In this document: positions 293 through 47,652 of the stretch, piece after piece
Layout of the letters: each line of letters opens with the position of its first letter
Numbering within the stretch: position 1 is the first letter of the stretch
Assembly: GCF_003573545.1 (NCBI RefSeq)
Contig: NZ_QWET01000005.1
Location: 186,001-250,000 of the forward strand
Length of the DNA stretch: 64,000 bases
DNA from: Mariniphaga sediminis
GTDB taxonomy: Bacteria > Bacteroidota > Bacteroidia > Bacteroidales > Prolixibacteraceae
Direction: 5' to 3'
Notes under the pieces: generated by a model
What the model was told of the DNA's origin: nothing
What the model saw: the letters and a program-made list of their open reading frames with translations, nothing else
The model's database searches: none
Position numbers and translations under genes: made by a program

Positions 293-309
293 AATGTCTA
301 TTTTTTTTA

Positions 310-348
310 CCACAGAGGGCACAGAGAAGCCGCAGAGAACCACAGAGG
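310..348. repeat. Degenerate CACAGAG-rich intergenic repeat
   Basis: The stretch contains four imperfect copies of a cacagag/cgcagag unit spaced about 8-14 bases apart. It lies in the 190-base gap between the AraC tail and the convergent DUF72 gene. Similar 'ccacagag...cacagag' runs are common intergenic clutter in environmental Bacteroidota (remembered, not searched). It is not a CRISPR: the units are far too short and there are no unique spacers. The following bases (about 395-420) carry a caatattgaat stretch of the same low-complexity style. Confidence 0.5.
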
Positions 349-38235: not shown

Positions 38236-39774
38236 ATGAAAAGAATTTTATCTTTTATTGTGATGGGTATTGCGATGCTGCAAATGACAAATGCCCAAGT
38301 TGTTGAACTAACGGGAGAGGGAGTTTTCGGTGTAAATCCGTCAACCCTGATGATTTCTGATCCTGGAACTGTAGACAGTGTAGTGGTAGTGGCTGCTGCC
38401 AGATTTCATAACGGGGCTGTACCCGCCGATGTGGAATTTTCCGACGCAAATGAAACATACACTGTAAGCTTTAATGAAGCCAATCCGGTTATAACCCAAC
38501 CGTGGGTTCAGGCAATGATTGATGACGGAACGCTGACATTTGGATATTACACTGCAAAGTTTGACGATGCAGATGCAGCAGGGATTGCACTGGATAATTT
38601 CGGACAGGAAGAGTATGTAAGGTCTTTTACTGCATACATCTACAGGTCCGGAGGTAGTCCGGAGATTCACAGCGAAGTGAAGGGGGAACATGCCTTTCTG
38701 TTTATCGGTGGCTCCGATCATCCATTGGTTTATAATTTTACCATTCCCACTTCTTCTGATGTTCGCGACGTGATTGTAACCCTTCCTTTTACCGATTTGG
38801 AAAGTGAAGACCTTCGGTATGCCAATGTAAGTGTAACAGCAGGTGCACAAACCGTTGAATCGGAATTTGATACCAACAATGCCGGAGATTTGCTGCATCT
38901 TGAAACCATTACTGTTCCGAATGTGCCTGGTGATGTTACCGAAGTTACTGTTTCTCTTTATTCACAATTTGGTCCTTCTGTTGCAGGAGGATACGATGAA
39001 AAGGACGGCGACTCTTTTGTTACAGGTCCGGCATTGCTGACAACTACATCTGAGGAAGATGAAGAAGAAGGTTGTACGCTTACACAGGGCTACTGGAAAA
39101 CACATTCAGAATATGGACCGGCTAAAAAAGCGGATCCAACCTGGGATATAATTGGACCTGATACCGAATTTTTCTGGTCTGGGATGTCTTATATTGAAGT
39201 GTTGAATACATCGGTAAGTGGAAATGCATATTATATTCTTGCCCATCAGTATATTGCTGCCGAGCTTAACTTCCTGGCCGGCGCCGACAACAGTGAAGTG
39301 GTGGATGAATTTGATGAAGCAACCGTTTTATTCAATACCTACACACCCAGTGAAATTGGAAGTTTAGGTGGTAGCGACGCCACAAGGAAAATGTTTGTAG
39401 AGCTGGCCGAAGTGCTGGATGACTACAACAACGGAGAAATTGGCCCGGGACATTGCGACGGAGATGAGTGGGAAGGTGAGATGGAAGAAGAAATGGCGAT
39501 GGCATTTGCTGTTACAATGGAGGCCAGCGTTAGTCCCAACCCGGTAAAAAATAGGGCTAAAGTGAGATTTGTTCCCGTAGTTGACGGAAATGCTACCGTT
39601 GAACTTTACGATTCAATGGGGAATTTGAAAGAAATACTGTTCGACCAAAATGTAAGTGCGGAAGGGAAAGTACAACTTACCCTGAATGCAAGTCAGTACA
39701 ACGAAGGATCTTATATCCTGGTAATCACTAACGGTGCAGTACGGACAAGTATTAAACTGGGAATTGATCATTAA
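38236..39774 (+). CDS. Type IX secretion cargo protein with C-terminal sorting domain
   Basis: A 512-residue secreted protein. Signal peptide at about 1-20 ('MKRILSFIVMGIAMLQMTNA'). Residues ~20-270 are beta-rich and acidic and contain repeated 'VTVSLYS' / 'VIVTLPF' style strands. At about 280-410 comes a domain beginning 'CTLTQGYWKTHSEYGP' and including 'GNAYYILAHQYIAAELNFLAG', a block known from many surface proteins of unknown role. The last ~80 residues match the type IX (Por) sorting domain: 'VSPNPVKNRAKVRF', 'ATVELYDSMG', 'YNEGSYILVITNG'. Such proteins cross the outer membrane and are commonly joined to A-LPS. Placement inside a polysaccharide operon is unusual. Close spacing (35 bases) links it with the small exported protein. 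Confidence 0.85.
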   Translation: MKRILSFIVMGIAMLQMTNAQVVELTGEGVFGVNPSTLMISDPGTVDSVVVVAAARFHNGAVPADVEFSDANETYTVSFNEANPVITQPWVQAMIDDGTLTFGYYTAKFDDADAAGIALDNFGQEEYVRSFTAYIYRSGGSPEIHSEVKGEHAFLFIGGSDHPLVYNFTIPTSSDVRDVIVTLPFTDLESEDLRYANVSVTAGAQTVESEFDTNNAGDLLHLETITVPNVPGDVTEVTVSLYSQFGPSVAGGYDEKDGDSFVTGPALLTTTSEEDEEEGCTLTQGYWKTHSEYGPAKKADPTWDIIGPDTEFFWSGMSYIEVLNTSVSGNAYYILAHQYIAAELNFLAGADNSEVVDEFDEATVLFNTYTPSEIGSLGGSDATRKMFVELAEVLDDYNNGEIGPGHCDGDEWEGEMEEEMAMAFAVTMEASVSPNPVKNRAKVRFVPVVDGNATVELYDSMGNLKEILFDQNVSAEGKVQLTLNASQYNEGSYILVITNGAVRTSIKLGIDH

Positions 39775-39973: not shown

Positions 39974-40618
39974 ATGATTTTTCAGGAAACTTACCTTAAA
40001 GATGCATTTGTTGTCAATCTTGCTCCGCATATTGATAGCAGAGGGTATTTTGTCCGTTTGTTTAGTAAAAATGAATTTAAGGAAATAGGTTTCAATAAAG
40101 AATTTGTGCAAGTGAATTATGCCTCAAATACCCAAAAGTACACACTCAGGGGATTTCATTTTCAGTTGCCGCCATTCTGCGAAACAAAACTCATCCGCTG
40201 CGTAAGAGGAAAAGTTCAGGACTATATCGTTGATGTGAGAAAGGGATCGCCTACTTTTTTAAAAAGTTTCACTATCGAATTATCGGGAGACAATACGCAG
40301 ATGTTGTTGGTGCCCGAGGGATTTGCTCATGGATACCTTACACTGGAAGAAGATTCTTCTCTTATCTATTTTCACTCAATGTTATACAAGCCTGGCCATG
40401 AGGGAGGCCTGCGTTTTGATGACCCCGTTCTGGGTATTGAAATGCCTGCCGTTCCTGAAATTGTTTCTGAAAAAGATATGCACTGGCCTTATATAAATGA
40501 AACACACTTTACAGGGATAAAGACGAGACATCATAGAAAAAGGTACCGTCACATTATTCACTTCCCTCATCGAAAAAGGAGAATATATGAGCCAGAGAAG
40601 CACTATTCAGAAAATTGA
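39974..40618 (+). CDS. RmlC-like nucleotide-sugar 3,5-epimerase
   Basis: A 214-residue cupin-fold epimerase of the dTDP-4-dehydrorhamnose 3,5-epimerase family. 'DSRGYFVRLF' (about 21-30), 'VNYASNTQKYTLRGFHFQLPP' region with the catalytic His (about 62), 'VRGKVQDYIVDVRKGSP' (about 78-94), and 'LLVPEGFAHGYLTLEEDS' (about 116-133) are visible. The rest of the rhamnose set (rmlA, rmlB, rmlD) is absent, so the substrate is more likely the CDP-linked 4-keto sugar made by the upstream genes. The C-terminal ~40 residues are basic and atypical. Its 3' end overlaps the DUF4910 gene by 32 bases. Confidence 0.82.
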   Translation: MIFQETYLKDAFVVNLAPHIDSRGYFVRLFSKNEFKEIGFNKEFVQVNYASNTQKYTLRGFHFQLPPFCETKLIRCVRGKVQDYIVDVRKGSPTFLKSFTIELSGDNTQMLLVPEGFAHGYLTLEEDSSLIYFHSMLYKPGHEGGLRFDDPVLGIEMPAVPEIVSEKDMHWPYINETHFTGIKTRHHRKRYRHIIHFPHRKRRIYEPEKHYSEN

Positions 40619-41900
40619 TCGAGAGATGAATTCAGGTCATTTGATGTTTGAACTTGCCAAACGGCTTTACCCCATTTGCAGAAGTATTACAGGCAATGGC
40701 GTGAGAGAAACGCTTTCAATTGTAAAGGAGATTATTCCATTGGAAATGGTGGAGGTACCTTCCGGGACCAAAGTTCTTGATTGGGAAGTTCCCGAGGAAT
40801 GGAACATTGGCGATGCATGGATAAAAAATTCTGCCGGTGAAAAAATAATAGATTTCAAACAATTGAATCTGCATGTTCTTAACTACAGTACTCCGGTAGA
40901 CCGGCAAGTTGGTCTGAAGGAGTTGAAGGAACATGTGTTTACCCTGCCGGAATACCCGGAATGGGTTCCGTACAGGACTTCGTATTACAACCGGCAATGG
41001 GGATTTTGTATGTCGCAAAAGCAGTTGGAGAGCCTGCCGGAAGATAGTTATCAGGTAAAAATTGATTCAGAACTCAAACCGGGATCGCTAACTTACGGAG
41101 AGTTTGTGGTGCCGGGTAAGTCAGAGGAAGAAGTACTGTTTAGCTGCCATATTTGTCATCCCTCGCTTTGTAACGATAATTTATCGGGAATTGCTCTGGC
41201 AACTTACATCGCGGAATTTGTCAAATCGAAAGCGCTTCATTATACCTACCGGTTTTTATTTATTCCGGGCACTATTGGTTCTATTACCTGGTTGAGCCGG
41301 AACGAGGACCTGTTAGAGAAAATTAAATATGGCCTGGTGTTGACACTTTTGGGTGATTCGTCACCTTTTCATTATAAAAAATCGAGAAGGGGAGATGCCG
41401 AAATCGACAGGATAATGAACTGGCTGCTTGAAAAGGAAGAAGGTGCCAGGCTGCTCGACTTTTCTCCTTATGGTTACGATGAGAGGCAGTTTTGCTCGCC
41501 GGGGTTTAACCTCCCTGTTGGAAGGCTTTCCCGGAAACCGCATGGCGAATTCCCGGAGTATCATACTTCGGCTGATAATCTGGATTTTATTCAGCCGGAG
41601 CATTTAAACCGGTCCTACGAATTCTTGTTAAAGGTAATTTCCGTTATCGAAGGCAATAAAAAATGGATAAACCTTAGCCCGAAAGGGGAACCTCAGCTCG
41701 GGAAGCGGGGATTATACAAACAGGTAGGAGGAATGGCACAGCAGAAAGATTATCAAATGGCCATTTTATGGATTTTAAATTATTCGGATGGGAATCATTC
41801 ACTGCTTGATATAGCTAAAAAATCGGGGATTGAGTTTTCAGTATTAAACAAAGCTGCAATGGATTTGCAACATGCTTCATTATTGAAACCGGCATCCTGA
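40587..41900 (+). CDS. DUF4910 family (aminopeptidase-fold) protein
   Basis: A 437-residue DUF4910/DUF2172 protein. The Zn-hydrolase core shows 'LYPICRSITGNGVRETL' (about 28-44), 'VLFSCHICHPSLCNDNLSGIAL' region (about 185-205, with His/Cys/Asp ligands), 'RFLFIPGTIGSI' (about 225-236) and 'PEYHTSADNLDFI' (about 325-337, His ligand). A winged-helix-like tail (about 365-435) follows. The fold is that of M28 aminopeptidases, yet members cluster with sugar-nucleotide genes, so deacylation of an amino sugar or a sugar-attached amino acid is a reasonable guess. A Shine-Dalgarno-like 'aaaggag' supports ATG 40587 over ATG 40626. Confidence 0.8.
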   Translation: MSQRSTIQKIDREMNSGHLMFELAKRLYPICRSITGNGVRETLSIVKEIIPLEMVEVPSGTKVLDWEVPEEWNIGDAWIKNSAGEKIIDFKQLNLHVLNYSTPVDRQVGLKELKEHVFTLPEYPEWVPYRTSYYNRQWGFCMSQKQLESLPEDSYQVKIDSELKPGSLTYGEFVVPGKSEEEVLFSCHICHPSLCNDNLSGIALATYIAEFVKSKALHYTYRFLFIPGTIGSITWLSRNEDLLEKIKYGLVLTLLGDSSPFHYKKSRRGDAEIDRIMNWLLEKEEGARLLDFSPYGYDERQFCSPGFNLPVGRLSRKPHGEFPEYHTSADNLDFIQPEHLNRSYEFLLKVISVIEGNKKWINLSPKGEPQLGKRGLYKQVGGMAQQKDYQMAILWILNYSDGNHSLLDIAKKSGIEFSVLNKAAMDLQHASLLKPAS

Positions 41901-41901
41901 A

Positions 41902-42639
41902 ATGAAAAACCTTCAGCATAAAACAGCCTTAATTACAGGGGCAACAAGCGGAATAGGAAAAGCCATTGCCCTGTTGATGGCCCCAAAAGGGTATAACCTT
42001 GTTTGTGTCGGACGAAATAGGAAGGGACTGGAACTTTTAAAAAGAGAGATGCCTGAAAATATTTCGTTTTGCAGTTACGAGTGCGATATGGCAGATGAAG
42101 AAAAGGTATTGCAAGTATCTCAGCGAATTGTTGCAGAGTGTGGAAAGATCGATATTCTTATCCATTCAGCAGGGAGTATCATAATAAATCCGGTTATTAC
42201 ATCGACTTTAGAGGAGTACAATTCCATATTTGGTTTAAATGTAAAAGCTCCTTTTTTGATAACAAAACTGTTTTTACCCTTGCTGAAGGAAAACCGGGGA
42301 CAGATTGTATTTATTAATTCGAGTGCCATTCAGCGAGCCATCCCGAACGCGAGTTTATATTCAGCATCAAAGTTTGCATTAAAAGGTTTTGCCGATTGTT
42401 TAAGGCAGGAAGTTAACCGATTTGGAGTGCGCGTTATTTCGGTTTTTCCGGGGCAAACAGACACTCCCATGCAAAAAAAATTGTATGAGAACGGAAACAA
42501 AAAATATATACCTGAAAATTTGATACAGTCGGCTGACGTCGCTTCTTTGGTTATTCACGGTCTGGAAATGCCGGAAACTGCTGAAGTGACTGATTTATAT
42601 GTAAGGCCAATGATTTCTTACATACAAAACAAAATTTAA
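41902..42639 (+). CDS. Classical SDR family oxidoreductase
   Basis: A 245-residue classical short-chain dehydrogenase: 'ALITGATSGIGKAIALLM' (cofactor motif TGxxxGIG, about 10-27), 'LIHSAGSI' (about 86-93), catalytic Ser in 'FINSSAIQRAIPNASLYSASKFALKGF' region with 'YSASK' (about 150-154), and 'VISVFPGQTDTPM'. Starts one base after the DUF4910 stop and ends next to fkbH. It could reduce or oxidise a hydroxyacyl group made by the FkbH/ACP module, or a sugar; sequence does not decide. FabG-like relatives act on acyl-carrier-bound substrates, which makes the first possibility attractive. Confidence 0.8.
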   Translation: MKNLQHKTALITGATSGIGKAIALLMAPKGYNLVCVGRNRKGLELLKREMPENISFCSYECDMADEEKVLQVSQRIVAECGKIDILIHSAGSIIINPVITSTLEEYNSIFGLNVKAPFLITKLFLPLLKENRGQIVFINSSAIQRAIPNASLYSASKFALKGFADCLRQEVNRFGVRVISVFPGQTDTPMQKKLYENGNKKYIPENLIQSADVASLVIHGLEMPETAEVTDLYVRPMISYIQNKI

Positions 42640-42684
42640 TTGACTAACGCCGTCTTAAAAGGTAGCAATTTAAAGACTGTTGAC

Positions 42685-44436
42685 ATGAAAGATTTTTCAA
42701 CATTAAAAAAGAACTTAAAAAAAGATTTTTCAAATCTTAAAAAGATAAAAGTAGCTGTTTTGGGAGATACTGCCACGCAGTTTCTCGTTCAAGCTATCCG
42801 GGGAGAAGGGTTTGAAGAAGGATTCGATCTGGAAATATGGGAAGCCGATTTCAATCAGATTGAACGCCAGGTTTTAGACCATACTTCCGAGTTATATGAA
42901 TTTAACCCTCAGATTGTTGTCATTTTCCAATCATCCCATAAGCTTTTGGGAAAATACAATAAACAGAAGCCGGAGAAACAAAACCAATTCGCTTTAGGTG
43001 AGTTGGAACAGATTAAAGATTTAACGTCGAATATTACTGGTGCCCTGGAAGCGAAGTTGATCTATTACAATTATACTGAAATAGACGACGCTGTTTTTGG
43101 GAATTTTGCCAATAAAACGCCAGGGTCGTTTTTGTTCCAGTTACGCAAACTGAATTATGAGTTGATGTGCCTGGCATCTGAAAACCCGAATATCTACCTG
43201 TGCGATATTTCTTCGGTACAAAACCGGTTGGGGAAGGTTGATTTTTTTAAACCTTCCATTTATATCAACACCGAAATGGTTTTGAACATTGATGCATTGC
43301 CCGCAGTGGCGTCTGCCACCGTACGTTTGATTTCGGCTCTTCAGGGTAAAATAAAAAAGTGTGTTATTTTGGACTTGGACAATACCCTTTGGGGTGGAGT
43401 TATTGGCGACGATGGACTGGAAAATATTCAGATTGGAAGCCTGGGAATTGGTAAGGCATTTACCGAATTTCAGTATTGGATTAAAAAGCTTAAAAACCGG
43501 GGGGTTATAGTTGCCGTGTGTAGTAAAAATACAGAATCGGTAGCCAAAGAACCTTTTGAAAAGCATCCGGATATGGTGCTGAGGCTGGACGATATTTCAG
43601 TTTTTATCGCCAACTGGGAGAACAAAGCGGATAATATCAGGCAGATACAAAGTATCCTGAATATCGGTTTCGACTCTATGGTTTTTTTAGACGATAATCC
43701 TTTTGAAAGAAATATTGTCAGGGAAAATATCCCGGAAATTTGTGTTCCGGAATTACCCGAAGACCCGGCCGATTATCTGGAATATTTGTACTCGCTGAAT
43801 CTGTTTGAAACGGTGTCGTATTCAAAAGAAGATGCTGACAGAACCAAATTGTATCAGATAGAAGCACAAAGGGTTTCCAATCAGAAAAAATATACCAATG
43901 TTGACGACTTCCTGAAAAGCCTCGATATGTATTCCCTGGTTGAACCATTTAATAAATTCAATACGCCCAGGGTAGCACAGTTGACACAACGTTCCAATCA
44001 GTTTAACTTAAGAACCATCCGGTACACCGAGGCTGATATTGAACGGATTTCAGCATCCGGAGAGCATCACTCTTTTACCTTTACCCTTGAGGATAAATTT
44101 GGCGACAACGGTTTAATATGCGTTGTGATTTTAAAACAGGAAAGCAGCGATGTGCTGTTTGTTGATACCTGGCTCATGAGCTGCCGCGTATTAAAACGCG
44201 GAATGGAGAACTTTGTATTGAATATACTTGTTGACTTTGCATTGGAGATGGGATTCTCCACTTTGAAAGGAGAATATTTGCCCACTGCAAAAAATGCCAT
44301 GGTTAAAGACCATTATGCTGATTTGGGATTTGAAGAAGAAGATGACTCCTGGATTTTAAATGTTTATGAGTACAAGAGAAGAAGAAATTACATAAAACCA
44401 AAAAAAGAATTACAATGGACAGAAGTGAAATACTAA
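42685..44436 (+). CDS. FkbH-like HAD-IIIC protein
   Basis: From ATG 42685 the protein has 583 residues; an upstream TTG at 42640 would extend it. The N-terminal SGNH-like domain (about 1-210) contains 'VAVLGDTATQFLVQAIRGEG'. The HAD-IIIC domain follows with 'CVILDLDNTLWGGVIGDDGLE' region (DxDxT, about 230-250) and 'MVFLDDNPFERNIV' (about 330). A GNAT-like C-terminal domain (about 420-560) contains 'FGDNGLICVVIL' and 'MSCRVLKRGMENFVLN'. FkbH proteins take 1,3-bisphosphoglycerate, dephosphorylate it and load a glyceryl unit onto an acyl carrier protein. The gene for such a carrier overlaps its end by 22 bases, so the same chemistry is likely here. Confidence 0.88.
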   Translation: MKDFSTLKKNLKKDFSNLKKIKVAVLGDTATQFLVQAIRGEGFEEGFDLEIWEADFNQIERQVLDHTSELYEFNPQIVVIFQSSHKLLGKYNKQKPEKQNQFALGELEQIKDLTSNITGALEAKLIYYNYTEIDDAVFGNFANKTPGSFLFQLRKLNYELMCLASENPNIYLCDISSVQNRLGKVDFFKPSIYINTEMVLNIDALPAVASATVRLISALQGKIKKCVILDLDNTLWGGVIGDDGLENIQIGSLGIGKAFTEFQYWIKKLKNRGVIVAVCSKNTESVAKEPFEKHPDMVLRLDDISVFIANWENKADNIRQIQSILNIGFDSMVFLDDNPFERNIVRENIPEICVPELPEDPADYLEYLYSLNLFETVSYSKEDADRTKLYQIEAQRVSNQKKYTNVDDFLKSLDMYSLVEPFNKFNTPRVAQLTQRSNQFNLRTIRYTEADIERISASGEHHSFTFTLEDKFGDNGLICVVILKQESSDVLFVDTWLMSCRVLKRGMENFVLNILVDFALEMGFSTLKGEYLPTAKNAMVKDHYADLGFEEEDDSWILNVYEYKRRRNYIKPKKELQWTEVKY

Positions 44437-44654
44437 AAGTGATCAATGATATTTTTATAGAAACCCTGGACAATGAGGAGATAGAGTTGAGCGAAGATTC
44501 CCAGGCATCGGATGTGGAAGATTGGGATTCATTATCGCATATCCAGTTGGTTGTGGAGGTAGAAAAACATTTTAAAATCCGTTTTACTTCCAAAGAAATT
44601 CAAAGCTGGGGCAATGTGGGAGGTATGATTGATTCTGTCGTTGCCAAATTATAA
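44415..44654 (+). CDS. Acyl carrier protein
   Basis: A 79-residue carrier with the phosphopantetheine site 'DVEDWDSLSHIQLVVEVEKHF' region (Ser near 37 in the DSL motif) and the acidic helices of ACPs ('NDIFIETLDNEEIELSEDSQASD' region). It overlaps the 3' end of fkbH and lies 25 bases before the VOC gene. It is a dedicated carrier for this locus, distinct from the fatty-acid AcpP, and would hold the FkbH product. Confidence 0.9.
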   Translation: MDRSEILKVINDIFIETLDNEEIELSEDSQASDVEDWDSLSHIQLVVEVEKHFKIRFTSKEIQSWGNVGGMIDSVVAKL

Positions 44655-44679
44655 CCCCTGAAAAAGAAGAAAACCTATA

Positions 44680-45078
44680 ATGATTCAATTGGAATTTCAT
44701 CATACCGGCATTTTAGTTAACAGTATTGAAAATTCGCTGCCCCATTATTCCCGGATATTTGGCGCCGAAAGTATTTCAGAAGTCTATTCCGTTTCGTCTC
44801 AAAAAGTAAAAGTCTGTTTTGTGAAAAACGGGGAAAGGAGCTTCCTGGAACTGGTGGAACCGCTGAGTGAAGATTCGGTCGTGACTAAAATGCTAAAAAA
44901 AAGAATAAGTTATTACCACGTAGGATATAAGGTGAAAAATGTGCAGAATGCCATAAAGGTTTTGGAAGAAGAGAACTATAAGGCGTTGAGTATTTTCAAT
45001 TCGGAAGCATTTCAGGGAAAACCGTGTGTGTTTTTGTTTACACCCGAAGGGCATCTGGTTGAATTGATTGAAGAATAA
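44680..45078 (+). CDS. VOC (glyoxalase/methylmalonyl-CoA epimerase-like) protein
   Basis: A 132-residue vicinal-oxygen-chelate protein with two beta-alpha-beta modules: 'FHHTGILVNSIENSLPHYSRIFG' region (metal His near 7-8), 'FVKNGERSFLELVEPL' (about 48-63), 'ISYYHVGYKVKNVQNAIKVLEE' region (second His, about 76-79) and 'FLFTPEGHLVELIEE' (Glu ligand near the end). The pattern resembles methylmalonyl-CoA epimerase, which inverts an acidic alpha carbon of an acyl thioester. Between an ACP and an O-acyltransferase it may epimerise an ACP-bound acyl group; this is inference from context. Confidence 0.8.
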   Translation: MIQLEFHHTGILVNSIENSLPHYSRIFGAESISEVYSVSSQKVKVCFVKNGERSFLELVEPLSEDSVVTKMLKKRISYYHVGYKVKNVQNAIKVLEEENYKALSIFNSEAFQGKPCVFLFTPEGHLVELIEE

Positions 45079-45088
45079 AATATTAAAT

Positions 45089-46555
45089 ATGATTTTTACA
45101 TCGACATCATTTTTAATCTTTTTTACCCTATTTTACCTGCTTTACTGGTTTGTTACAAACAAAAATCTGAGAATACAGAATCTGTTGCTGCTGGCGGGAA
45201 GTTATTTTTTTTATGCCTTGGCCGACTGGCGCCTTCTTGCCTTTTTAGTAGCTGTTTCAGCCTTAAATTATTTTTTAGGAATTTACATTGAAAAAACAGA
45301 GAATCAACTCAGGAAACGTTTGTTGCTTAATGTCGGATTAATCCAGGGACTGGGAGGATTGATATATTTTAAATATTTCAATTTTTTTATCGCTTCGTTT
45401 AACGAGGTTTTACAGTCTTTGCATTTCAATGTTCATGTAAGAACCCTGCAAATATTACTTCCCCTTGGCATCAGTTTTTTTACGTTTAAAACCATCAGTT
45501 ATATTCTGGATGTATACAAGGGAAAAATAGAAGCGACAAAAGATTGGCTGGTTTTCTTTAATTATGTATCGTTTTTCCCGACCATATTGTCGGGGCCGAT
45601 TGATAAAGCCAGGGCTTTTGTTCCCCAGTTGCAGAAAAAAAGGGTATTTGAATACAGTCTGGCAGTTGACGGAATGCGTCAGATACTGTGGGGAATGTTT
45701 AAAAAAGTTGTTATTGCAGATAACATCCTTGTTTACACCGATCAGATTTTTAGCAACTACGAAAGTTTATCCGGCAGTACTTTACTGTTAGGTGCTTTTT
45801 TATATACAATTCAGCTCTATGCCGACTTTTCCGGCTATTCTGATATGGCAATCGGGTTGGGCCGATTATTAGGATTTAATGTTGCAAAGAATTTCAACTT
45901 CCCGTTTTTTGCCCAGAATATTGCGGATTTTTGGCGCAAGTGGCATATCTCTCTAACCAGTTGGCTTACAGAATATGTATTTACACCTTTAAGCATTGCG
46001 TTCAGGGATTATGGCAAACTCGGATTGATTTTAGCTATTCTGATTAATTTCGTTTTGATCGGGATTTGGCATGGCGCCAATTGGACTTTTGCGGTTTTCG
46101 GATTTTTGCACGGCTGCTATTTTATTCCCCTCATTTTGAGAGGAACCATGAATAAAAGGAAGAAAATAGCAAAAGGCAAAGTCCTGCCCTCTTTCAGAGA
46201 ATCTTTGAATATGGGAGCAACCTTTTTATTAGTGATGCTCGCGAATATTATTTTCAGGGCCGACAATATTGGCCATGCCTGGGGATACTTTTTATCCATC
46301 CTGTCCAACCCCTTGTTTTCTTTTTCAACTGCGGGGATGGAAGGGATAAATGTAAATCCGCATCTTTTAATTATGCTGGGTTTAAGTATTGTCATGCTTA
46401 TTTTCGGATGGTTTCAGCGCAACAAAGAGCACGCCCTGCAATTTCAGGATATGAAAACAAGCAGGGCATTTCGCTGGAGTATCTATTATTTGTTGGCGGT
46501 GGCTATTATTTACTACCAGAGTAGCTACAAGCAATTCATTTATTTTCAGTTTTAA
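45089..46555 (+). CDS. MBOAT family O-acyltransferase
   Basis: A 488-residue polytopic membrane protein from ATG 45089 ('MIFTSTSFLIFFTLFYLLYW') with about ten helices. The MBOAT core is 'FFTFKTISYILDVYKG', 'FPTILSGPIDKARAF', 'LYADFSGYSDMAIGLGRLLGF', 'FWRKWHISLTSWLTEYVF' and the catalytic-His block 'GIWHGANWTFAVFGFLHGCYF'. This is the AlgI/DltB type that moves an acyl group across the membrane onto a surface polymer. It follows FkbH, ACP and VOC genes and precedes an AlgJ/AlgX-like SGNH gene, the standard pair for polysaccharide O-acylation. The likely donor is the dedicated ACP or a derived lipid. Confidence 0.9.
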   Translation: MIFTSTSFLIFFTLFYLLYWFVTNKNLRIQNLLLLAGSYFFYALADWRLLAFLVAVSALNYFLGIYIEKTENQLRKRLLLNVGLIQGLGGLIYFKYFNFFIASFNEVLQSLHFNVHVRTLQILLPLGISFFTFKTISYILDVYKGKIEATKDWLVFFNYVSFFPTILSGPIDKARAFVPQLQKKRVFEYSLAVDGMRQILWGMFKKVVIADNILVYTDQIFSNYESLSGSTLLLGAFLYTIQLYADFSGYSDMAIGLGRLLGFNVAKNFNFPFFAQNIADFWRKWHISLTSWLTEYVFTPLSIAFRDYGKLGLILAILINFVLIGIWHGANWTFAVFGFLHGCYFIPLILRGTMNKRKKIAKGKVLPSFRESLNMGATFLLVMLANIIFRADNIGHAWGYFLSILSNPLFSFSTAGMEGINVNPHLLIMLGLSIVMLIFGWFQRNKEHALQFQDMKTSRAFRWSIYYLLAVAIIYYQSSYKQFIYFQF

Positions 46556-46560
46556 ACAAG

Positions 46561-47652
46561 ATGAATAAATTTATCTTCAAAATAATCATTTTTGTTATTC
46601 CTGTATTGGGCCTGTATGTTGTTGAAGGTTTTCTTCCTTCTTTTACATTTACTTACCGGCCATGGGAGGCTCTTGATTTTCAAACAAAGTTCGATTTCGA
46701 GCGGACTTTTTATCCCAATAAGAAGGTTCAGATGGAAGCGGTAGGGCAGTTGTGCCATCACACACCACATGCCATAGTAAAAGAGGAAACCTGGAAAACG
46801 GACAAATTGGGAAACCGGAATGACACCTTTATCCAGAACCCCGATGTTCTGATTATCGGTGATTCGTTTATGGCAGGGTGCTGTGTTACCCAGGATTCAA
46901 CGATTACCAACCTGTTGAAGTCTGAACTGGGAGATGAAACGAAAATTTATAACATTGCGCCGGGCGAATTTTCCAGGGCCGACTATTATTTAAGTAGCGG
47001 GATAATCGAAAAACCCGACCTGATAGTATACTCCAAGTCAGAAAGGTATGTTCCGAAGTCTTTGGAGGAATACAAGGATTCACGTTCCTTAAAAACAGAT
47101 TTGAAAAAGCTGTTTGAAAATAATTCTACGTTTTCGGGAATTAGCGTTTTTTTGGATAAGGCATTACGGCATTATTCGAAAAACTGGCTGCAGGCACGGT
47201 TAACCAACCAAAACGGAGACGGGGTTCCCGGAGTGGAAGGGAGCGGAATGTTTTTCTTTAATACCGCCGCCCAGGAAGACGACCCAAACCTTGTTCGCAA
47301 CACTGACACAGATTTGGAAAGGACAAAAAACAATATTGTTTCCTACAAGGAATATTGCGATGCAAACGGTATCGATTTCCTTTTTCTTCCAATGCCCAAT
47401 AAAGCAACAGTTTATTATGAATATGTACCTTTTAAAGAGCAGCCCGACTATCTTTTTAAACTGGATTCAATGCTGAGGGCTGAGGGGATAACAACCGTGA
47501 ATACATTGAAACTATATAATGATTACAGAGAGTCGAATGATAAATTGCTTTACCATCTCGATGATACCCACTGGAATTCAACCGGGGTGTATCTCGTTTC
47601 AAAGGAACTGGCTGGCACCATTGAGAATTCCAGGCTTTTGGCCCGGGAGTAA
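46561..47652 (+). CDS. SGNH/AlgX-like O-acylation partner protein
   Basis: A 363-residue protein anchored by an N-terminal helix (about residues 6-26) with a periplasmic SGNH-hydrolase domain: block I 'VLIIGDSFMAGCCVT' (Ser near 103), a long middle region, and the catalytic 'YHLDDTHWNSTGVYLVSKEL' (Asp and His near 337-340). AlgJ/AlgX and PatB proteins of this kind take the acyl group from an MBOAT partner and place it on the polysaccharide. It lies 5 bases after the MBOAT gene. Motifs are clear; the polymer acceptor is inferred to be the product of this locus. Confidence 0.8.
   Translation: MNKFIFKIIIFVIPVLGLYVVEGFLPSFTFTYRPWEALDFQTKFDFERTFYPNKKVQMEAVGQLCHHTPHAIVKEETWKTDKLGNRNDTFIQNPDVLIIGDSFMAGCCVTQDSTITNLLKSELGDETKIYNIAPGEFSRADYYLSSGIIEKPDLIVYSKSERYVPKSLEEYKDSRSLKTDLKKLFENNSTFSGISVFLDKALRHYSKNWLQARLTNQNGDGVPGVEGSGMFFFNTAAQEDDPNLVRNTDTDLERTKNNIVSYKEYCDANGIDFLFLPMPNKATVYYEYVPFKEQPDYLFKLDSMLRAEGITTVNTLKLYNDYRESNDKLLYHLDDTHWNSTGVYLVSKELAGTIENSRLLARE

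Follow-up and report, generated by a model that had tools for sequence, protein, structure and literature searches.

Six consecutive genes in a polysaccharide locus of Mariniphaga sediminis probably form a cassette for carrier-protein-fed O-acylation of a polymer, which would work in the manner of the Dlt system with an FkbH-type enzyme as its loader. The window, that is the whole stretch of DNA analysed, comprises 64,000 nt of contig NZ_QWET01000005.1 (positions 186,001-250,000, forward strand), and all coordinates given here are window-based. The six genes encode an SDR oxidoreductase, an FkbH protein, an acyl carrier protein (ACP), a VOC protein, an MBOAT acyltransferase and an SGNH protein, and they fill positions 41902-47652 on the + strand. 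Their spacing is operon-like, with gaps of 45 nt (SDR-FkbH), 25 nt (ACP-VOC), 10 nt (VOC-MBOAT) and 5 nt (MBOAT-SGNH) and an overlap of 22 nt between FkbH and ACP. The observation of six adjacent, tightly packed genes, made in a preliminary description from the sequence, was confirmed, and all six match the families named there. Genes and sites are as follows (coordinates, strand, description).

41902..42639, +, SDR oxidoreductase, 245 aa, with TGATSGIG and YSASK motifs; first gene of the block that is absent from the collinear locus of genome G050
42685..44436, +, FkbH-type glyceryl-ACP synthase (HAD-IIIC, FkbH_N and FkbH domains) by family matches; likely ATG at 42685
43372..43380, +, HAD aspartates D245-x-D247 of DLDNTLWGG (598-aa numbering), by alignment and motif
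44415..44654, +, dedicated acyl carrier protein, 79 aa, by its PP-binding match
44529..44531, +, Ser39 (DSLS) of the ACP, phosphopantetheine site, from the sequence
44680..45078, +, VOC protein, methylmalonyl-CoA-epimerase-like by family match; putative C2 epimerase of ACP-bound acyl
45089..46555, +, MBOAT acyltransferase, 488 aa from the likely ATG at 45089, DltB-like by family match and in an ACP-linked clade by tree
45968..46036, +, MBOAT residues 294-316, aligned with the DltC-docking helix HC of DltB; long form, with R306
46070..46072, +, MBOAT His328 of WHG, the conserved MBOAT histidine, by motif
46535..46552, +, C-terminal FIYFQF of the MBOAT, an FxYxxF acyl-tyrosine shuttle motif with Tyr485, by motif
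46561..47652, +, AlgX-like SGNH protein, with GDS (Ser102) at 46858-46866 and DDTH (Asp334/His337) at 47560-47571

The window FkbH matched FkbH_N (1.1e-73) in Pfam and TIGR01686 in NCBIfam, the latter with 307 bits and thus above the curated cut-off of 146.65. Homologue starts and the DNA point to ATG 42685 as its start, where the open reading frame (ORF) given by the tool began at TTG 42640. The HAD aspartate motif (DLDNT) was invariant in the FkbH alignment (A1) and was found in 76 of 81 FkbH proteins, window included. The PP-binding match of the ACP scored 23.3 bits (cut-off 20.8), and all 76 ACPs found near FkbH have the phosphopantetheine motif DS[LIM]. The source genome contains a single match to the window FkbH and four PP-binding matches, the cassette ACP among them. 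In polyketide pathways, FkbH together with a stand-alone ACP is described to give glyceryl-ACP (PMC7489565, PMC4979870).

By analogy with characterised FkbH proteins, the window enzyme would take glyceryl from 1,3-bisphosphoglycerate and load it onto holo-ACP. The metal-binding VOC could then epimerise C2 of the acyl thioester, from D- to L-glyceryl-ACP, by chemistry like that of methylmalonyl-CoA epimerase or glyoxalase I, and the SDR may have a sugar as its substrate or bring about a further change in the acyl. Homology suggests that the ACP docks on the MBOAT at a long cytoplasmic helix, and that His328 of the MBOAT would pass the acyl on the periplasmic side to Tyr485 of the C-terminal FIYFQF; both motifs are present. 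The SGNH protein (Ser102/Asp334/His337) would finally transfer the acyl as an ester to the Wzx/Wzy-type polysaccharide of the surrounding locus. In gene content, loader and tailoring genes are exchangeable in relatives, an AMP-ligase taking the place of FkbH and MaoC plus SDR, or a methyltransferase, standing beside or instead of the VOC.

Public named genomes were scanned with an alignment of nine FkbH proteins, and the best 80 of at least 578 confirmed relatives were used as FkbH loci, so the fractions below hold for FkbHs near that of the window. A gene run was defined as genes on the same strand with gaps of no more than 250 nt (300 nt for control MBOATs), and the count covered four genes before FkbH and seven after it. 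Models for SGNH, VOC, MaoC and methyltransferase were built from the window and loci L079, L080 and L084 and then applied to the same set; the names MaoC and methyltransferase rest on Pfam for representatives. Among the 80 loci, 73 contain an ACP, 54 an MBOAT, 44 a match to the SGNH model, 24 a MaoC, 20 an SDR, 19 a VOC and 15 a methyltransferase. Every one of the 54 MBOAT-bearing loci also has an ACP, and FkbH, ACP and MBOAT are uninterrupted by an unrecognised gene in 48 of 81 loci (window included). The 54 loci belong to Bacteroidota (40), Bacillota (9) and, with one each, Spirochaetota, Omnitrophota, Verrucomicrobiota, Thermodesulfobacteriota and an unranked group. Among 20 distant FkbH loci (<39 % identity), one has an MBOAT.

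As controls, the MBOATs most like that of the window were picked from 395 genomes of the same phylum regardless of FkbH. Among the 61 matches listed, one was the window's own and five lay in known FkbH loci; the other 55 gave 40 regions with 43 MBOATs (42 distinct), and none of these 42 has an ACP or FkbH in its run. FkbH matches are rare (9/140 family genomes; 23/395 phylum-sample genomes at E 1e-40), yet 54 of the 80 loci combine FkbH with ACP and MBOAT against 0/42 controls, and the grouping is therefore more than chance. This recurrence supports the view of the preliminary description that the genes are a single functional module, with FkbH and its dedicated ACP as the acyl source and MBOAT/SGNH as the transfer unit, and that they do not scatter into unrelated operons; in relatives they mostly stay together.

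The edges of the cassette are clean. Genome G050 (same family, 70 % complete) has a collinear locus that lacks exactly SDR to SGNH, with identities of 56 % (RmlC), 76 % (DUF4910), 79 % (GT2), 78 % (WZX), 62 % (GT4), 55 % (Wzy-like) and 62 % (GT2b), and G064 also joins DUF4910 directly to GT2-WZX-GT4. At the same place, G065 contains an SDR (41 %), a type IX secretion system (T9SS)-tailed protein, an AMP-binding ligase, a GNAT, an ACP, an MBOAT (47 %) and an SGNH (52-57 %); the search of 140 family genomes gave no match to FkbH in G065. Since the ligase of G065 replaces FkbH and VOC, the loader was exchanged, whereas transfer unit and SGNH were retained. The window SGNH is AlgX-like, with a PF16822 match over residues 248-358 only and no DltD family match; it is 53 % identical to that of G065 and 14-22 % identical to five other aligned SGNHs, as would be expected if recognition of the polymer lies with the SGNH and choice of the acyl with the loader. 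The patchy occurrence of the block, shown by the few family genomes with FkbH and by the otherwise collinear locus without it, could also mean that unrelated genes, shuffled horizontally, came to lie together in a polysaccharide locus by chance. We regard this as very improbable, as it is contradicted by FkbH-ACP-MBOAT in six named phyla, by the control MBOATs and by the joint occurrence of VOC, FkbH, ACP and MBOAT on alphaproteobacterial plasmids.

The best support for a Dlt-like reading came from the MBOAT. It matched PF03062, and its best NCBIfam match was DltB (TIGR04091) with 180.7 bits, below the cut-off of 375; of its methionines, that at 45089 is the first to which homologues have a counterpart. 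DltB is also its nearest solved relative by sequence and by fold (model mean pLDDT 86). When a quick tree of 126 MBOATs was drawn, the window MBOAT fell in a 36-member clade (SH-aLRT 100) whose members all have an ACP in their run, and the 68 rows labelled as without ACP were all outside it. The MBOATs of L087 and L105 were labelled ACP-linked, as their runs do contain an ACP, upstream at a distance of more than three genes. Those of L135, L145, L148 and L149 were labelled noACP in the tree, although FkbH/ACP occur in their run in another order; they are FkbH-operon rows in the docking-segment count, and all are long.

When 58 carrier-linked MBOATs were compared with 68 others, six of the 12 most discriminating alignment columns clustered within window residues 294-316, a segment that lies opposite helix HC in a sequence alignment with DltB. 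In DltB, the residues reported to touch DltC are Met302, Val305, Ile306, Met309 and Lys312 in helix HC as well as Arg317 in the helix that follows (PMC11035591). Docking-segment length was counted as the residues from window 300 to 316, with at least 17 scored as long and at most 15 as short. Of 53 FkbH operons with a single MBOAT, the window's among them, all but L130 (52 of 53) have a long segment, as do both ligase-ACP operons, and the segment is short in 53 of 55 controls, 52 of which have a PLGG[SN]-type motif. These controls were the 42 phylum-sample MBOATs and those of 13 of 14 relatives' MBOAT regions, L203 having been moved to the ligase-ACP group. In seven multi-MBOAT loci, the MBOATs directly behind ACP, VOC, SDR or FkbH are long (7/7) and the others short (9/9; three of the nine belong to L137, where none is directly behind the module). 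In a later test of the signature, two alphaproteobacterial MBOATs from loci with ACP, FkbH and VOC were both long (28 residues). We predict that the long HC-aligned segment is the ACP docking site of the MBOAT. The acyl-tyrosine motif FxYxxF (PMC12148441) is found at the C-terminus of 66/70 MBOATs of FkbH runs and of 68/68 other MBOATs; since controls share it, this motif speaks for the transfer step and not for the donor. The WHG histidine motif occurs in 58/58 carrier-linked and 68/68 other MBOATs.

Several observations weigh against carrier-fed acylation by this cassette. No MBOAT was found in the counted run of 26 of the 80 FkbH loci. Eight of these end less than 2 kb from FkbH, two (L145 and L148) have an MBOAT further off and 16 have none in the run, so some FkbH-ACP pairs serve other acceptors. 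In whole-genome searches, an MBOAT was present in four of eight close FkbH loci. When 14 relatives' MBOAT regions (out of 24 non-window matches) were chosen regardless of FkbH, one of them, L203, had an ACP, here together with an AMP-ligase, and FkbH is therefore not the sole companion. The docking signature was recognised after the data had been inspected, a single clade accounts for 36 of the 58 carrier-linked MBOATs, and some loci do not follow the signature: L130 (FkbH-MT-ACP-MaoC-MBOAT, where MT is a methyltransferase) has a short segment, L137 (FkbH-MT-ACP) has three MBOATs, all short and all upstream, and controls L202 and L207 are not short. The SGNH is divergent and its predicted structure poor (mean pLDDT 61), and the VOC scores 60.6 bits against TIGR03081 (curated cut-off 114.95).

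The loci without an MBOAT would also fit a different explanation, in which MBOAT/SGNH are an ordinary acetyl-CoA O-acetyltransferase and the acyl of FkbH, ACP and VOC is meant for another acceptor, for example by cytoplasmic N-acylation of a nucleotide amino sugar. Comparable cases are described: the 3,5-dihydroxyhexanoyl group of the Flavobacterium psychrophilum O-polysaccharide is predicted to be ACP-derived, without an MBOAT (PMC6519341), and a dimethylglyceroyl pseudaminic acid of Campylobacter jejuni goes with an fkbH-domain gene in the locus (PMC7099621). We consider this explanation unlikely, given the runs that consist of FkbH-ACP-MBOAT-SGNH alone (L118, L119, L121 and L129), the carrier-specific MBOAT clade with its docking segment, and a family scan that gave no N-acyltransferase match among the six genes.

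Two further gene arrangements were observed around these loci. Locus L203 (relative G097) consists of an AMP-binding ligase, a methyltransferase, the MBOAT, a 321-aa ORF and the ACP, followed by glutamine amidotransferase/asparagine-synthase-like genes, and may represent a second ligase-type carrier-fed arrangement. In L051, which has no MBOAT, four ORFs of 219-232 aa flank FkbH-ACP and resemble one another by eye; these are perhaps another acceptor for the same acyl.

Returning to carrier-fed O-acylation, three layouts recur among relatives: FkbH-ACP-MBOAT-SGNH, FkbH-ACP-MaoC-SDR-MBOAT-SGNH and FkbH-(MT)-ACP-VOC-MBOAT-SGNH. The placement of the VOC between ACP and MBOAT had been called especially unusual, yet it is no isolated case: 12 of the 19 VOC loci also have ACP and MBOAT, and a neighbourhood search for the triple found the order ACP-VOC-MBOAT in ten of the 80 loci. 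VOC and MaoC are mutually exclusive (MaoC in 0/19 VOC loci vs 24/61 others; Fisher p 4e-4), and VOC and SDR never occur together in the 80 loci (SDR in 0/19 vs 20/61; p 0.002), unlike in the window. MaoC pairs with SDR (18/24 vs 2/56; p 6e-11), the SDR directly following MaoC in 17 of 18 cases, and VOC pairs with the methyltransferase (9/19 vs 6/61; p 9e-4). All of these p values are too small because related loci are not independent. Oxidation by the SDR together with epimerisation by the VOC, as previously proposed, is thus not a general pairing, and 18 of the 20 SDR loci also carry the MaoC dehydratase.

By ordinary dehydratase/reductase chemistry, MaoC plus a reductase would convert glyceryl-ACP to lactyl-ACP. 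An aldo/keto-reductase-like gene (named by eye) follows MaoC in L105 and FkbH in L050. The FkbH operon of a Lachnospiraceae member (L144:1116-8318) has, ahead of its ACP, genes for glycine-cleavage-H, dihydrolipoyl-dehydrogenase-like and lipoate ligase proteins, for two D-type subunits of 2-hydroxyglutaryl-CoA dehydratase and for an activator of BcrAD type (gene names from Pfam). The gene set of L144, and of L145, which is known only by ORFs of like sizes, is possibly a fourth way to remodel glyceryl-ACP. Plasmid-borne versions (L285, L287 and L288) were observed in Rhodobacteraceae, with the order ACP-FkbH-MBOAT-hypothetical-VOC, on pSymA of Sinorhizobium meliloti, with VOC-MBOAT-ORF-ACP-FkbH, and in Subdoligranulum, with FkbH-ACP-MaoC-SDR. 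The ORF of pSymA is annotated as a TonB-dependent receptor and has SGNH-like motifs by eye, without a Pfam match. In L089:2580-19722, FkbH-ACP-VOC lies between ORFs of more than 2000 aa, and the second of these is itself an FkbH match; the setting resembles that of non-ribosomal peptide or polyketide synthases.

The window VOC matched Glyoxalase_4, and its best NCBIfam match is methylmalonyl-CoA epimerase. The nearest solved chains are glyoxalase-named proteins and the human methylmalonyl-CoA epimerase. Among 24 module VOCs, H8, E57 and H80 are present in all and E128 in 23; we take these four positions to be the metal ligands, as in the VOC family. Glyoxalase I produces an alpha-hydroxyacyl thioester, and a thioester of this kind is therefore a plausible VOC substrate. 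A VOC stands beside distant FkbHs without an MBOAT in 3 of the 20 distant loci, so it seems tied to the FkbH product and not to the MBOAT. A putative C2 epimerase of acyl-ACP is our first choice among functions of the VOC. A stray housekeeping epimerase was considered and rejected: the genome has a separate methylmalonyl-CoA-epimerase-like VOC, and the module VOCs are outside the branch of ten housekeeping rows. There were 13 such rows, of which L037 and L042 (probably wrongly picked ORFs) and L046 (which fell among module rows) were not used as evidence.

The window SDR matched adh_short (1.6e-49, Pfam), and its sole other match at E 1e-45 in the 140 family genomes is in G065, beside a DUF4910. 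This match first suggested that the SDR is part of the upstream RmlC-DUF4910 unit only; gene order then pointed the other way, in small numbers: G050, G064 and G009 have DUF4910 without a window-type SDR, G108 has a different SDR-type gene, and in G065 the SDR goes with ACP-MBOAT-SGNH. As it is inside the block absent from G050 and present in the ligase-type cassette of G065, the SDR may belong to the cassette, and its membership is less sure than that of the other five genes. Its presence here and in G065 would fit a variant of the carrier-fed route in which SDR and/or VOC turn glyceryl into another C3 unit of the lactyl, pyruvyl or hydroxymalonyl type, as would the relatives that swap in the potentially lactyl-forming MaoC and SDR. 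This variant has in our view a small chance of being correct: the 19 VOC loci are without SDR, the window cassette has no MaoC, and the family scan showed no further dehydrogenases such as the methoxymalonyl-ACP pair.

The setting of the cassette is a polysaccharide locus. In a family scan of ten window genes, a GT2 and a Wzx-type flippase were found downstream, and nucleotide-sugar-type genes (named by eye) are located upstream. A DUF4910/DUF2172 aminopeptidase-like protein (40587-41900; 437 aa, peptidase M28 match) is beside RmlC and adjoins the cassette; matches to it at E 1e-60 were found in 6/140 family genomes. A T9SS-tailed protein (38236-39774) is also inside the locus; its homologues occupy the same locus in G050 (53 %) and, in G065 (46 %), a place between SDR and ligase.

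The preliminary interpretation was thus partly supported: its core was strengthened, but not its SDR-plus-VOC chemistry, nor the idea that an ACP feed is without precedent. A broader reading, which we hold at about even chances, is a large modular family beyond Dlt. Its members would use FkbH or an AMP-ligase as loader, together with an ACP and interchangeable tailoring enzymes, to make different C3 acids for one MBOAT/SGNH exporter, and the length of the MBOAT docking helix would tell carrier-fed from CoA-fed systems in any genome. The tailoring sets would be VOC, MaoC with SDR or aldo/keto reductase, methyltransferase, and the Lachnospiraceae lipoyl proteins with 2-hydroxyacyl dehydratase; the acids would be D- or L-glyceryl, O-methylglyceryl, lactyl and possibly 3-hydroxypropionyl. 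If this is true, many MBOAT/SGNH pairs transfer other acids that are built on an ACP of their own, the acyl could be forecast from neighbouring genes and the donor read from the MBOAT sequence, and acyl choice on surface glycans becomes testable by gene removal. It would also suggest a genetic route to glycerate and lactate esters on exopolysaccharides, perhaps including the L-glycerate of gellan.

The open-licence PMC literature gave no report joining FkbH with MBOAT, ACP and polysaccharide, which does not establish absence from print, and none on FkbH with glyceric acid and O-antigen or on MBOAT with ACP and SGNH. Judged by title and the start of the abstract, the papers there on FkbH and polysaccharide did not deal with this module. 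Gellan (sphingan) exopolysaccharide is described to carry L-glycerate and acetate esters (PMC9104527), and the L form would fit an epimerised D-glyceryl unit of the cassette; enzymes for its glyceryl group were not found in the literature consulted on gellan.

A glyceric-acid-type acyl destined for a glycan is also known from C. jejuni, where strain 11168 shows dimethylglyceroyl-pseudaminic acid, an fkbH domain is present in cj1302, and cj1301 carries the annotation of an epimerase (PMC7099621). The group is reported absent from strains 12664 (cj1302 pseudogene) and 12661 (without cj1301), in a comparison of three strains whose other genes differ too; the link of the two genes to this loss is our own inference. 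The C. jejuni acyl differs in being an N-acyl on a sialic-acid-like sugar, and MBOAT/SGNH are not mentioned in the portion of PMC7099621 used here. The aminopeptidase-like Cj1295 (435 aa) is reported to be needed for dimethylglyceroyl-pseudaminic acid (PMC3068675). The window DUF4910 resembles it in size and description, which is a lead to a possible homology.

Like the FkbH pathways of polyketides (tetronates, methoxymalonyl-ACP of FK520), the cassette pairs FkbH with a stand-alone ACP. In those pathways the unit is built into a polyketide, whereas here MBOAT/SGNH are downstream. The methoxymalonyl-ACP route is described to use two further dehydrogenases (PMC7489565), and its operon (FkbG-K) also has an O-methyltransferase; the ten window genes scanned gave no acyl-CoA-dehydrogenase, 3-hydroxyacyl-CoA-dehydrogenase or methyltransferase match and so differ from that operon. 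MBOAT/SGNH pathways other than Dlt are said to lack a carrier protein and evidently to use acyl-CoA (PMC12148441, 2025). The cassette resembles PatAB and AlgIJFX in having an MBOAT with C-terminal FxYxxF and a separate SGNH gene with an ALGX match, but differs in its dedicated ACP and its different MBOAT docking segment.

Dlt (DltA-DltC-DltB-DltX-DltD) is described as D-alanylating the teichoic acids of Gram-positive bacteria, with a carrier that feeds the MBOAT, an acyl-Tyr relay in FxYxxF and a final transferase of SGNH type (PMC12148441). An ACP feed had been put forward as a distinct route, but Dlt is a precedent for it, as it does the same with D-alanine. Like Dlt, the cassette has a small carrier protein in the operon. 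Unlike Dlt, it has FkbH in place of the DltA ligase (the scan of ten window genes gave no AMP-binding match) and FxYxxF fused to the MBOAT instead of a separate DltX. No gap of more than 57 nt is present from DUF4910 to GT2 to hold a DltX gene, the rest of the genome not having been searched for DltX. Its MBOAT is under the DltB cut-off, its SGNH matches ALGX and no DltD family, it sits in a polysaccharide locus and it has extra genes for tailoring on the carrier. The cassette is therefore not a Dlt system, as ligase, DltX and DltB cut-off all fail, nor a carrier-free acetylation pair, as it has a carrier. We place it as a variant of carrier-fed MBOAT-SGNH polymer acylation, of the kind known from Dlt, with a different loader.

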